This document shows, piece after piece, positions 3,039 through 13,721 of a stretch of 30,177 nucleotides of DNA. Numbering within the stretch: the stretch's first letter is position 1; every line of letters starts with the position of its first letter. The position numbers were made by a program, and so were the translations under genes. The DNA lies in IMG/VR virus record IMGVR_UViG_3300001371_000010, positions 1 through 30,177 of that record. The stretch is one strand, 5' to 3'. Below the pieces are notes generated by a model. It was not told the DNA's origin, did not search any database, and was given only the letters and a program-made list of their open reading frames with translations. This DNA comes from a virus.

Positions 3039-3119
3039 TTATAGTGTTTTATATAATATTATTAATAAAATATCAAAAAATAAAAATATAATTATTATCG
3101 CTATTTGATATTGATTCAT
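3039..3119 (-). CDS. 26-aa membrane peptide
   Basis: MNQYQIA is followed by an unbroken hydrophobic run (IIIIFLFFDILLIILY) and a short positive tail, KTL. It starts within the stop codon of the kinase-like gene (TAATG), so translation is probably coupled. One membrane-spanning helix is predicted by eye. Peptides of this size may act on host membranes or on partner proteins, but nothing in the sequence says which. Confidence 0.45.
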   Translation of the reverse strand: MNQYQIAIIIIFLFFDILLIILYKTL

Positions 3120-3652
3120 TATCTTACATTTAATAATAAATTAAATTCTTCATCTAATGAAGACTCAATATATTCTCTTTTTTTTCGGTTAAAAACTTCT
3201 TCCCAATTATTATATCCTCTATTTTCCTTTTTTCTATAATTTAAATTTAATATACTTCCAATACCAAAATCAATAGATATTATATACGGATTAAATTGTT
3301 TTGCTATATCAATAAATCTTTTTCTACTAGATTGTTTAACATTAGGCATATCAATAATAACATTAAACCTATGTACAAGACTACAAAAAATACATTGATT
3401 TTCTATTGTTTTATATAAATTACTTTTATTTTTATCATAATTTAAATATGTTCCGCTAATCATTGTTATTATTGCATCATCATTAATTATAATAAATTTT
3501 TTTGAATATGATGTTATTTTACTAGCGAACGACGATTTTCCAGTTCCAATATTTCCTGTTAATATTATTAATAATTGCTTATCTGTTGGAAAATATTTTT
3601 TAAATAATGTTTCAATTTTAATATTTTTATCTATTATTTCTATTTTTTTCAT
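3119..3652 (-). CDS. P-loop kinase, polynucleotide-kinase-like (AAA_33 type)
   Basis: The Walker A motif GNIGTGKSS sits near residues 33-41 after a hydrophobic strand (LLIILT). A strand ending in NDD (IIINDDAI, near 54-61) matches the substrate-binding aspartates of the 5'-kinase domain of T4 polynucleotide kinase and AAA_33 proteins, and VIIDMPNVKQSSRKR (near 98-112) matches the region where those enzymes have (S/D)xTN and a following arginine. At 177 residues it is one kinase domain with no phosphatase half. Such enzymes phosphorylate 5' ends of nucleic acid or small substrates; here the substrate is unknown. Linked by overlap to small genes on both sides. Confidence 0.65.
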   Translation of the reverse strand: MKKIEIIDKNIKIETLFKKYFPTDKQLLIILTGNIGTGKSSFASKITSYSKKFIIINDDAIITMISGTYLNYDKNKSNLYKTIENQCIFCSLVHRFNVIIDMPNVKQSSRKRFIDIAKQFNPYIISIDFGIGSILNLNYRKKENRGYNNWEEVFNRKKREYIESSLDEEFNLLLNVR

Positions 3653-8111: not shown

Positions 8112-8140
8112 TTGAAAAGTAATAAATTATGTAGTATAAT
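8112..8140 (+). promoter_or_regulatory. Sigma70-like promoter for the rightward operon
   Basis: TTGAAA (8112-8117) and TATAAT (8135-8140) are spaced by 17 bases. Transcription would start near 8147, about 30 bases before the first plus-strand ATG (8176). It is the best candidate for driving the packaging and structural genes. Confidence 0.7.
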
Positions 8141-8175: not shown

Positions 8176-8357
8176 ATGAAAGATAATTATTTAAATTATA
8201 AAAATTTAAAAAAAATGAAAATGAATTGTCTAAATTTTTAGATATAATTTATTATTGTCCTATATTAAATACTATTATAAGTTCTACAAGAAAAATAATG
8301 TTTAATTATAAAAAATTAAATAATTTTTGCTGTAATAAATATGAAAGGAATGAATAA
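8176..8357 (+). pseudogene. First gene of the rightward operon, frameshifted at an A8 run
   Basis: ATG at 8176 follows a purine-rich ribosome site (GAAAGAAAAG). The frame MKDNYLNYKNLKK stops at TAG soon after a run of eight A (8208-8215). Shifting one base at the run gives a 60-residue product that continues NENELSKFLDIIYYCPILNT and ends FCCNKYERNE, whose TAA overlaps the next gene's ATG (TAATG). The coupling supports the shifted frame as the real one. The cause could be mutation, a homopolymer sequence error, or slippage by polymerase at the A run. No family recognised. Confidence 0.5.
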
Positions 8358-8695
8358 TGGGTGATGTAGTTAAAATTAATAAATCAAAAAATAATGCTAC
8401 TTTAAATACAGAAAAAATAAACGAAAATAATAAGAAATCTTTTTTACGATATCATGTTAAACTTGAAGATACTAAAATATATTATCTTGCAGTAGATATA
8501 GAACCAGAGATAGAAACAGACGATAAAGAAAAGAAAAGTGAAAATATAAAGAAAGAAAATACAAAAGCAATAATGACTGCATGGGATGTTATTAAAAATA
8601 AATTAATTGATTTAAATAAAATTAAAATAGGTGATGCATATAAGCAAGAAATTCTTAAAGTAGAATCTGTTGTAAAAGAAACAAAAGATAACTAA
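8357..8695 (+). CDS. 112-aa hypothetical protein
   Basis: Starts MGDVVKINKSKNNATLNTEK. The N-terminal and middle parts (residues 1-30 and 50-70) are low-complexity and highly charged, flanking a short beta-like block (FLRYHVKLEDTKIYYLAVDI), with a helical C-terminus. It is coupled by TAATG to the upstream frame and preceded by GAAAGGAATGA. It is the second gene after the rightward promoter, where phages often place small-terminase or regulatory genes, but no family is recognised. Confidence 0.65.
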   Translation: MGDVVKINKSKNNATLNTEKINENNKKSFLRYHVKLEDTKIYYLAVDIEPEIETDDKEKKSENIKKENTKAIMTAWDVIKNKLIDLNKIKIGDAYKQEILKVESVVKETKDN

Positions 8696-8705
8696 TTAAA
8701 ATATT

Positions 8706-8825
8706 ATGGCAGTGATGGTAATGGAAGACATGCTAGGTACTAGTGAAGAGAATTTGTCATACAAATTTAAAGATATTGCGCTGTATCTTCTTCAATTGCA
8801 GGTTAGATTCCTGCCTACCATACCA
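8706..8825 (+). ncRNA. Unusual tRNA-like RNA with encoded CCA
   Basis: The ends form a tRNA: acceptor ATGGCAG (8706-8712) with CTACCAT (8815-8821; one C-A mismatch), discriminator A, CCA (8823-8825), T-stem GCAGG/CCTGC with loop TTAGATT, and a D-arm ATG/CAT with a GG-containing loop (8715-8731). Where an anticodon arm is expected there is only CTAG-GTA-CTAG (8733-8743), a triloop. A large variable region follows: TGAAGA (8744-8749) pairs with TCTTCA (8789-8794) and encloses two hairpins, one with a seven-base loop GTCATAC that shows CAT. It is either a degenerate Leu/Ser-like tRNA or a tRNA mimic. It lies within the rightward operon. Confidence 0.55.
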
Positions 8826-8875
8826 ATTATTATTAAATATAATAAAATAATATTATTTTATTGAAAAATAATAAA

Positions 8876-9196
8876 ATGTCTGTTAAAATATATAATAGAG
8901 AAACAAAAACATTTGAAATAATTAAACCAAAGTTAGTCCATATTGGTTCGGTTAAAAAATGTGATAAAAATAATTTACCATTAACATATAATGATAAATT
9001 AATAATATATAATTTTGTTGAAAAAGTTAAGTATTTAGGTGAAGAATTTGGTTCACGGCAAATAACATCTTTTTCAAATAAAGATATATTTAAAATACAT
9101 GACGATTTTAAAAAAGAACAAGGAAGTAACATTAGTTTAAATATATCTAATAAAAATAATGATTTAGAAAGAATAAAAAAACAACTGGGGTTATGA
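8876..9196 (+). CDS. 106-aa hypothetical protein before terminase
   Basis: I take ATG at 8876 rather than TTG at 8861. The product starts MSVKIYNRETKTFEIIKPK and contains PLTYNDKLIIYNFVEKVKYL, then a charged C-terminus (NDLERIKKQLGL). It ends TGA-TAA 17 bases before terL. Its position suggests a small terminase subunit or a packaging accessory, but no helix-turn-helix is obvious and I see no match to known TerS families. There is no strong ribosome site. Confidence 0.55.
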   Translation: MSVKIYNRETKTFEIIKPKLVHIGSVKKCDKNNLPLTYNDKLIIYNFVEKVKYLGEEFGSRQITSFSNKDIFKIHDDFKKEQGSNISLNISNKNNDLERIKKQLGL

Positions 9197-9214: not shown

Positions 9215-10687
9215 ATGACTCCAGAAGAAGCAGCATTTCTAGCTAAGAATAATTTCTACGCTTTTCCTAAGTTTGCATCAGGTTTACAGTGTCCTCGCCA
9301 TATAAAATTCATAGCAGATAAAATTCAAGAAAAGCTTGAAGATATAAGTCTTGATTTTAAATTATTATTAATTTCGCTCCCTCCTCGACATGGGAAAACT
9401 CTTCTTATATCAAAGCATCTTCCAGCATGGTATCTCGGAAGAAACCCTGATAAAAGAATAATACTTACTTCTTATTCGGCTGAATTATCAGATGAAAATT
9501 CTGATTATGCAAAAGATGTATTCGCAAAATGGGGGCCTATTCTTTGGGATGCTCATCCGAGTAAGTCATATTATAACCGTAGTAAATGGAATACAACAAA
9601 AAGCGGAGGGTGCATATCTGCTGGTATAGGCGGAAGTATAACAGGATTTGGAGCTGATCTCTTCATAATAGATGATTATTTTAAAGGGCCTGAAGAAGCT
9701 CAATCAAAAGCTGCCCGTGATAAACTATGGGATAAATGGCAAGGGATAATTGGAACTAGGTTGCATCCAGGATGTCTTGTAATAGTTCTGGCTACTCGTT
9801 GGGGGCATGATGACTTGATGGGGAGATTGATTGATAAACAGGTTATTGAAGGTGCTGAATTTCCCTTTAAGTTTGAATATATCAATATGCCTGCATTGAT
9901 CGAGGATGAACACGATCTTGAAAATGATCCTCTTGGTAGGAAGATTGGCGAAGCATTATGGCCTAATAGGTTCTCCTCAAAACTTTTAAAAAATGCTAAA
10001 AAAATAGTAGGCCCCTATTGGTGGAATGCTGAATTTAAGGGTCGTCCTTCAAGAGAAGGAGGAAATCTATTTAAATCAGAACATTTTAGATACTATGATA
10101 TAGATAGATTGACAAATGATATTCTATGTTGGAGAGCATCAGAAAAAGACCCTATTAGAGTTCGCCGAAATGAAATGAAGATATGTGTTATAGTTGATCC
10201 CGCATTGGAGAAAAAAACCAAAAACGATCCTACCGGAATGCACGCATGGGCATATTCTAGGAAGCATAAGGTATGGATGCTACTAGATAGATTTGTTGAC
10301 AGAATAGATCATTCAAAAATAAATGAAACTTCTAAAGTTTTTGCATATAAAAATAATGCTTCATACATTCTTGTTGAAAATGAAAAATTAGGTAAAATAT
10401 TAGTAAAGCAATCAGAAGGAAATGATAAAATAGGAAGTAGAAAAATACCGTTTAAAGAAGTTCCGACAAAAGGAATTGATAAATATGCTCGTGCTACACC
10501 AATGGCATCATATTGTGAAAATGAACGAGTATTTTTCCCAAAAAATGCACCATGGTTAATTGAATTTGAAAGAAATTTAAAAGATTTTCCAAGTGGATCA
10601 CATGATGAGGACGTAGATTTGGCAGCATATGCTTCAACAATGGAAGATAAAATATCAATAGCTGAAGCTTTGGCAGGTATACATTAA
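9215..10687 (+). CDS. terL: Terminase large subunit
   Basis: The ATP-driven DNA-packaging motor and headful nuclease that docks on the portal. The ATPase domain shows Walker A PPRHGKT (residues 56-62), Walker B LFIIDD (149-154) and the coupling motif ATRW (193-196). The RNase H-like nuclease domain shows its acidic residues in IVDPA (D328), VENE (E388) and HDEDVD (463-468). At 490 residues it is full length for the Terminase_6/gp17-like family. The ATG at 9215 has only a weak ribosome site. Base composition is richer in G and C than that of the leftward genes, consistent with a conserved core gene. The portal gene follows after 17 bases. Confidence 0.95.
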   Translation: MTPEEAAFLAKNNFYAFPKFASGLQCPRHIKFIADKIQEKLEDISLDFKLLLISLPPRHGKTLLISKHLPAWYLGRNPDKRIILTSYSAELSDENSDYAKDVFAKWGPILWDAHPSKSYYNRSKWNTTKSGGCISAGIGGSITGFGADLFIIDDYFKGPEEAQSKAARDKLWDKWQGIIGTRLHPGCLVIVLATRWGHDDLMGRLIDKQVIEGAEFPFKFEYINMPALIEDEHDLENDPLGRKIGEALWPNRFSSKLLKNAKKIVGPYWWNAEFKGRPSREGGNLFKSEHFRYYDIDRLTNDILCWRASEKDPIRVRRNEMKICVIVDPALEKKTKNDPTGMHAWAYSRKHKVWMLLDRFVDRIDHSKINETSKVFAYKNNASYILVENEKLGKILVKQSEGNDKIGSRKIPFKEVPTKGIDKYARATPMASYCENERVFFPKNAPWLIEFERNLKDFPSGSHDEDVDLAAYASTMEDKISIAEALAGIH

Positions 10688-12422: not shown

Positions 12423-13721
12423 ATGCCAATTCCAATGCCAAATGAAAATGAGGAACAAAATACTTTTATTGGTAGATGTACTGGAATAATAAAAGGAGAA
12501 TTTCCAGACAATAAACAACGTACAGCAATTTGTTATTCTCAATGGAGAAAAAGTAAAAAAGATTCAGTAGATAATGTAGATAGAAATATTTGTTTTAATA
12601 TTGATGCACAATCTAATTTAAAATTAGATCAACAAACTGGTTTTCTTTATGGCAAAGCATATGTTACTCGATCTGGTGTTTTTGATTATTATGATTTAGA
12701 TGGTAATTTAATGAGGGAATTAAGATCACCAGAAGAAGTTTTTGATAAAGAATCAATGGATTCTATTAAATTAAAACCAATTGTTTATGATCATCCTGAA
12801 AAGATGGTGACAGTTGATAATATAAAAGATTTACAAGTTGGAACGATTGGAGATAGTGCTGAAAAAGATGGAATATTCTTATCAACAAATATAGTTATTA
12901 CAGATAAAGATATTATACAAAATGTACTTGATAAAAAAAAAGCAGGATTAACAACTGAATTAAGTTGTGGATATAGCTGTGATTTAATTCCTGAATATGG
13001 AGTTCATGATTCAGAAGGATATTATACTTTTAAGCAGAGTAAAATACGATACAATCATGTGGGGATTGTAGACAAAGCAAGAGCCGGAAAAAATGTACGT
13101 ATACTTGATAAATTAACTAATAAAAATAAGGAGTTTACAATGAGTAAAGTTCAATTCGTAAGAAATGCAATTAATCTTGATAGTTTTAAGGTTGATGCAA
13201 TTTCTGGACAATTTGATGATGAATCAATAATTGTTATATCATCTTTTAGTAATAAATTAGATGAGGCTTCAACAATTATTGACTCAATAACAAAAGATAA
13301 GAATGCATTGCAAGGTAAATTAGATCAAGCTAATGAAAATACAATTGAATTAAATAAAAAACTTGATACATTCACAAATATTGATTCTCTCGAAGTAATC
13401 ACAATGTTTAATGAAAGAAAAAATGTATTAGATGTTGCAGAAAAACTTTCAGTAGAATGTAAGGATAAAAATTTAAAAGATATAAAAATTGATTGTATTA
13501 AGAAAGTATCAGAAGATTTTGATTCAGCAAACAAAACAGATGAATACATAAATGCTCGATTTGATTCAATTAATGATTTAATTGAAATAAAAAATAATAA
13601 AGATTCAAAAAATTATTATGCAAATTTTATGAAAAATATGAAAGATGCTCAAGGATCTAAAATAGTAAATCCACGTGATAATTTTATTAAGAAAGATAAA
13701 GAACAAAATAGAAAACAATGA
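12423..13721 (+). CDS. Prohead protease-scaffold fusion (DUF2213-like)
   Basis: Three parts are visible. Residues 1-45 (IGRCTGIIKGEFPDNKQRTA, then CYSQW) are a short Cys/Trp motif found at the head of many phage maturation proteins. Residues about 55-230 resemble DUF2213 proteases: H124 in YDHPEK and S181 in TTELSCGY are the likely catalytic residues, with NHVGIV at 211-216 closing the domain. From residue 240 on the protein is a charged coiled-coil (DSITKDKNALQGKLDQANEN), typical of scaffold. It would assemble the procapsid and then cut it for expansion. It has ribosome site AAAGGAG. The TGA stop overlaps the ribosome site of the next gene. Confidence 0.8.
   Translation: MPIPMPNENEEQNTFIGRCTGIIKGEFPDNKQRTAICYSQWRKSKKDSVDNVDRNICFNIDAQSNLKLDQQTGFLYGKAYVTRSGVFDYYDLDGNLMRELRSPEEVFDKESMDSIKLKPIVYDHPEKMVTVDNIKDLQVGTIGDSAEKDGIFLSTNIVITDKDIIQNVLDKKKAGLTTELSCGYSCDLIPEYGVHDSEGYYTFKQSKIRYNHVGIVDKARAGKNVRILDKLTNKNKEFTMSKVQFVRNAINLDSFKVDAISGQFDDESIIVISSFSNKLDEASTIIDSITKDKNALQGKLDQANENTIELNKKLDTFTNIDSLEVITMFNERKNVLDVAEKLSVECKDKNLKDIKIDCIKKVSEDFDSANKTDEYINARFDSINDLIEIKNNKDSKNYYANFMKNMKDAQGSKIVNPRDNFIKKDKEQNRKQ
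13140..13721 (+). CDS. Nested scaffold protein from an internal start
   Basis: An in-frame ATG at codon 240 of the protease gene is preceded by AAGGAG with six bases between GGAG and ATG, a better site than most in this operon. Translation from here gives a 193-residue protein, MSKVQFVRNAINLDSFK..., consisting only of the helical, charged scaffold part. The arrangement matches lambda C/Nu3, where protease and scaffold share a C-terminus. The assembly core would contain mostly the short form with a few protease fusions. Confidence 0.7.
   Translation: MSKVQFVRNAINLDSFKVDAISGQFDDESIIVISSFSNKLDEASTIIDSITKDKNALQGKLDQANENTIELNKKLDTFTNIDSLEVITMFNERKNVLDVAEKLSVECKDKNLKDIKIDCIKKVSEDFDSANKTDEYINARFDSINDLIEIKNNKDSKNYYANFMKNMKDAQGSKIVNPRDNFIKKDKEQNRKQ

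Follow-up and report, generated by a model that had tools for sequence, protein, structure and literature searches.

The DNA analysed here is a 30,177-nt stretch of a virus (IMG/VR record IMGVR_UViG_3300001371_000010, positions 1–30,177; hereafter the window), which carries a structural operon of the contractile-tail type encoding terminase, portal, protease, major capsid, tail sheath and tape-measure proteins. On the plus strand, gene A (8357–8695, 112 aa) and gene B (8876–9196, 106 aa), both conserved in relatives, precede the gene for the large terminase subunit (9215–10687), and a sigma-70-like sequence, TTGAAA-17-TATAAT (8112–8140), is a candidate for the operon promoter by its match to the consensus alone. 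Between genes A and B, 390 bases upstream of terminase, lies a 120-nt element (8706–8825, plus strand), which begins 10 nt after the end of gene A and ends 50 nt before the start of gene B, and which, from its anatomy, a scoring scan and its homology, is annotated here as a tRNA-derived RNA gene of class II type without a usable anticodon loop. The sole call by ARAGORN in the window at default settings is a tRNA-Glu at 1873–1947. Elsewhere in the window, the minus strand encodes at 3119–3652 an AAA_33-type P-loop kinase that may be polynucleotide-kinase-like. A GC-rich intergenic stretch at 556–710, for which Rfam gave no match, seemingly shares the motifs GGGNCCC, TCTCTATAT and TTGTTAGACTAC or its complement with GC-rich intergenic stretches of several phages of the group (L110:16636–16785, L115:14751–14860 and L117:13116–13210), and these stretches possibly form one RNA family.

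The initial annotation had described a tRNA-like RNA with acceptor, D and T arms and a genomic CCA at 8706–8825, and both the coordinates and this anatomy were confirmed. The 5′ strand of the acceptor stem, ATGGCAG (8706–8712), pairs with the 3′ strand, CTACCAT (8815–8821), at six of seven positions, with a C5:A68 mismatch, and the 3′ strand is continued by A73 (8822) and the encoded CCA (8823–8825). T8 and G9 connect the acceptor stem to the D arm, ATG-GTAATGGAAGA-CAT (8715–8731), which has a fully paired stem (3/3), a loop equal in length to that of a class II phage tRNA (contig L126) and G18G19, and in which A14 is replaced by T. The T arm, GCAGG-TTAGATT-CCTGC (8798–8814), is paired throughout (5/5), with C56 of the TTCRANY loop consensus replaced by A. 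In total, 14 of the 15 acceptor, D and T pairs are present, and the anticodon and variable-arm stems are also paired; the replacement of the near-invariant A14 and C56 means that the 8–14 and 19–56 contacts are lost. What remains of the anticodon arm (8732–8744) is GCTAG-GTA-CTAGT, the shrunken arm that had been noted initially, with five pairs (one of them G–U) and a 3-nt loop in place of the canonical 5-bp stem and 7-nt loop, and without U33. The variable arm (8745–8793) is expanded to a three-way junction, which is 49 nt in length with a GAAGA/TCTTC closing stem and two hairpins, GAATTTGT-CAT-ACAAATTT and AAGATA-TTGCGC-TGTATCTT. This junction had been recognized in the initial annotation; the 7-base loop assigned there to the CAT hairpin corresponds to an alternative pairing, as the predicted fold has 8 bp and a loop of 3 nt. 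The long paired variable arm and the D loop are those of class II tRNAs, although the variable arm is far oversized, and the combination of recognizable tRNA homology with a lost decoding feature is as expected of a tRNA pseudogene or pseudo-tRNA. With its codon-reading loop gone, the RNA is, judged from its sequence, predicted to be incapable of normal decoding.

The resemblance to tRNA is not a product of chance. A scan with a composite score made up of the T arm, acceptor, T8 and GG selected two sites in the window, namely this element and the tRNA-Glu; in 218 Mb of Markov sequence with the dinucleotide make-up of the window the score of the element (at least 32) was reached at 25 sites, only one of which carried CCA, so that the resemblance is real. 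Likewise, the T-arm motif GGTTNRANTCC, expected 0.17 times per window, was found twice, in this element and in the real tRNA-Glu. The folding energy of the whole RNA was not significant (z = −1.5, 16 of 200 shuffles; z = −1.3 in a second run), and that of the variable region was borderline (z = −2.0, p = 0.037; better than 96% of shuffles), which is only suggestive of a real signal. The minimum-free-energy fold (−29.5 kcal/mol), in which the CCA end pairs with the D-arm region, is 4.5 kcal/mol better than the cloverleaf (−25.0 kcal/mol).

ARAGORN at default settings did not call the element. The relaxed searches proposed with the initial annotation gave only noise-level calls with ARAGORN when introns were allowed, and Rfam RF00005 recovered the T arm alone (11.5 bits against a gathering threshold of 29; E = 9.6). 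A known Rfam family was thus rejected, with matches at the T-arm level only, as was an intron-bearing tRNA, for which lowered ARAGORN thresholds yielded nothing above noise. A tmRNA was rejected in the same way: ARAGORN made no tmRNA call in the window, Rfam gave no tmRNA match, and lowered thresholds again returned noise. The T loop TTAGATT is that known for tRNA-Pyl; a pyrrolysine-type tRNA was nevertheless set aside on account of the D arm, which is of the Leu type with GG.

The descent of the element was indicated by a pattern scan of IMG/VR with its D-arm/anticodon-stem sequence, which returned three contigs with an intact tRNA with a long variable arm (L126:200–286, L127:320–406 and L128:3438–3524), called tRNA-Asn GTT by ARAGORN; the other matches were coding-like or due to chance. 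These three tRNAs have G73 and the anticodon GTT, an Asn anticodon on a Ser/Leu-type body. They share with the element T8 G9, the ATG/CAT D stem, the D-loop length, the GCTAG…CTAGTG stem, the T arm and the encoded CCA, and over positions 7–31 they align with it without a shift in register and agree at 23 of 25 bases, a figure that was partly preselected by the search pattern, whereas the register, the upstream GTGAT and the downstream CTAGTG, with which both continue, are independent of it. In contrast to these tRNAs, the element has T14 and A56, is about 6 nt short in the anticodon loop (GCTAGCCTGTTTAGCTAGTG in L126) and has a variable arm of 49 nt rather than approximately 13–15 nt. By this match, exact in register, the element is a remodelled class II tRNA gene. 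No DNA homologue was found in phage records, and a genome scan gave no tRNA match.

Nine terminase relatives (50–79% identity) were inspected, most of them as whole contigs. No orthologue of the RNA was found in INPHARED or among these nine relatives, so that the arrangement sought in related phages following the initial annotation did not recur. In three of them (G001, G002 and G003) a gene of 108–111 aa, gene C, which is missing from the window, lies between genes A and B; the ordinary tRNA that was initially envisaged at this place in relatives is therefore not found in the closest ones, which have a protein gene instead. In contig L111 the terminase gene is apparently interrupted by an intein (L111:11636–14116, 826 aa).

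Other tRNA-like RNAs do occur in the group. In G002, G003, G005 and G009 such RNAs head the terminase operon, behind promoter-like sequences. With stems assigned by hand, the acceptor, D and T pairs are complete (16/16) in each of G002, G003 and G005, and none of their anticodon loops is 7 nt in length (10, 5 and 6 nt, respectively). Between the RNAs of G002 and G003, whose orthology rests on position alone, the stems show two-sided changes. The G009 copy, with flanks close to those of G005, has two broken pairs in its T stem. The Rfam tRNA model scored 45.9 bits for G002 and 33.3 bits for G003 and gave no match for G005 and G009, and ARAGORN at default settings called none of the RNAs of G002, G003 and G005; with the threshold lowered to 85%, the anticodon that it gave for G002 and for G005 had two letters, which is taken to mean a short loop. 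Further RNAs carry a T arm and an acceptor: a 130-nt RNA in G003 (9746–9875, minus strand, within L216, 9735–9885) has a perfect acceptor and T arm and no recognizable D or anticodon arm, and a homologous pair in G005 and G009 shows two-sided changes in its stems. Homologous RNAs of about 180 nt, in which a T arm is accompanied by a long closing helix, were observed at L113 (~10077–10255) and L118 (~12667–12845), with two-sided base changes in that helix and covariation in a GAAA-loop hairpin. The weak tRNA at L218 (G002 3279–3350, minus strand; 21.3 bits), which has the anticodon CTA and is called tRNA-Pyl by relaxed ARAGORN, is a possible amber suppressor. The operon head of G001 is occupied by a different structured RNA of about 240 nt (L105:4811–5053, plus strand; z = −3.28, 0 of 200 shuffles), for which Rfam holds no family. 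It has a 13-bp closing helix and is situated directly 3′ of a strong sigma-70-like promoter and 5′ of a SLOG-like gene, and it contains stretches that we take to resemble 23S (AACTTCGGGAGAAGG) and 16S rRNA. A scan for further operon-head RNAs anchored on the SLOG gene returned mostly distant phages.

On balance we lean, with little more than even confidence, towards a non-decoding class II tRNA gene that has become derelict under relaxed selection. In this reading the anticodon loop of a phage tRNA gene of the Leu/Ser type has disappeared, and extra hairpins have been added to the variable arm; the RNA would be co-transcribed with the flanking terminase-operon genes, and a CCA-ended RNA of approximately 120 nt might yet be freed from the transcript by RNase P of the host and trimming of the 3′ end, and the gene would be without function, akin to the other damaged tRNA genes of the phage group. 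Decay of a Leu/Ser tRNA had been among the initial suggestions, and it gains from the in-register match to class II phage tRNAs. It is favoured because A14 and C56 are lost, the 5–68 pair is mismatched and a competing fold scores better than the cloverleaf; the lack of an orthologue and the presence of other damaged tRNAs in relatives, such as that of G009, point in the same direction. A degenerate tRNA has been reported in phage CBA120 (PMC3184105), and tRNA pseudogenes have been predicted in T4-like phages (PMC1524935). Against decay, almost all of the stems of the RNA are intact and its insert outfolds most of its shuffles, and the complete pairing in G002, G003 and G005 despite abnormal loops is not predicted by simple decay. 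This intactness is partly explained by recognition bias, because only copies with intact stems are readily recognized, but such a bias leaves the lack of canonical tRNAs at these loci unexplained.

The alternative of a maintained RNA, which retains a non-decoding module of acceptor, D and T arms, is a serious one, to which we give a clear minority of our confidence. The module would serve processing, stability or the binding of host factors (RNase P, the CCA enzyme, EF-Tu or a synthetase), and the anticodon arm would be dispensable or selected against. Charging of Leu- and Ser-type tRNAs by bacterial LeuRS and SerRS is independent of the anticodon. The fully paired operon-head RNAs with their abnormal loops, the two-sided changes between G002 and G003 and the occurrence of further T-arm/acceptor RNAs in G003 and in G005/G009, the latter with two-sided changes of their own, all argue for maintenance, and a precedent is provided by tRNA-Other of Bacillus cereus, a non-translating RNA with a deletion phenotype (PMC3399842). 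However, the RNAs have no common anticodon or variable architecture, the RNA of the window is located off the operon head and has lost A14 and C56, the G009 copy is broken, the orthology of G002 and G003 is positional, and the stems were assigned by hand. The tRNA mimic suggested initially, matured with CCA or recognized by host factors, is a possibility that gains some weight because relatives combine intact acceptor, D and T stems with abnormal anticodon loops. The proposed decoy for anticodon nucleases, on the other hand, finds no support and was dropped, as the loop cut by those enzymes is the missing part and the CAT hairpin is at most a putative stand-in for the anticodon. More broadly, and somewhat doubtfully, the phage group may keep non-decoding tRNA-like RNAs in the region from the promoter to terminase, with acceptor, D and T arms conserved and the anticodon/variable region free to change, of which the RNA of the window would be a class II version put to a non-translational use.

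A working tRNA of odd shape, with AATTT-GTCATAC-AAATT as the anticodon arm (CAT) or with an intron removed by splicing, is very improbable. By inspection the hairpin is able to form 5 bp and a 7-nt loop with U33, CAT and A37, but in the predicted fold the loop closes to 3 nt, and by homology the original anticodon stem is the GCTAG/CTAGTG pair. This arrangement requires extra sequence between the D arm and the anticodon arm, and an 18-nt segment separating the two is without a parallel known to us; splicing fares no better given the noise-level ARAGORN calls. That 8706–8864 is instead a short protein gene with accidental tRNA features is scarcely credible and was rejected on codon usage: although a frame of 52 codons (frame 1) opens exactly at 8706, 10 nt past gene A, and several IMG/VR matches to part of the anticodon-arm sequence look coding-like, the frame has a codon score of −0.20 (+0.09 to +0.44 in neighbouring genes) and a GC3 of 0.40 (median 0.15), the RNA part, at 0.40, is lower in codon adaptation than any stretch of 40 codons in the structural genes, no conserved homologue of the 52-aa product was found, and the composite tRNA score with CCA is expected only about once per 218 Mb.

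As mere products of decay, these RNAs would illustrate how decoding is lost from phage tRNAs; if instead maintained, they would be natural tRNA-shaped RNAs without a decoding end and would offer a route to non-translational uses of the tRNA shape in phages. Since ARAGORN at default settings missed all of these genes, they probably escape routine annotation as well, and a phage tRNA without an anticodon loop is not described in the literature covered by our search.

Among known systems, the tRNA-like domain of tmRNA similarly keeps the acceptor and T arm and has the anticodon arm replaced, whereas the RNA of the window is far shorter and no tag reading frame was identified in it. Like tRNA-Other of B. 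cereus, it is tRNA-shaped and thought to lie outside translation; tRNA-Other, however, retains a Trp anticodon and its deletion has a demonstrated phenotype (PMC3399842). RNAC and RNAD of T4, small phage RNAs as the predicted RNA of the window would be, are detected as late RNAs in T4-infected cells (PMC9697503). Phage tRNAs with mutated anticodon loops evade anticodon nucleases and are predicted to be still functional in translation (PMC10264068); in those tRNAs the loop is altered, whereas here it is gone. The degenerate tRNAs and pseudogenes of other phages (PMC3184105, PMC1524935) are also damaged phage tRNA genes; whereas those genes are calls from tRNA searches only, the RNA described here has near-intact stems, with the damage concentrated on the missing anticodon loop and the oversized variable arm.
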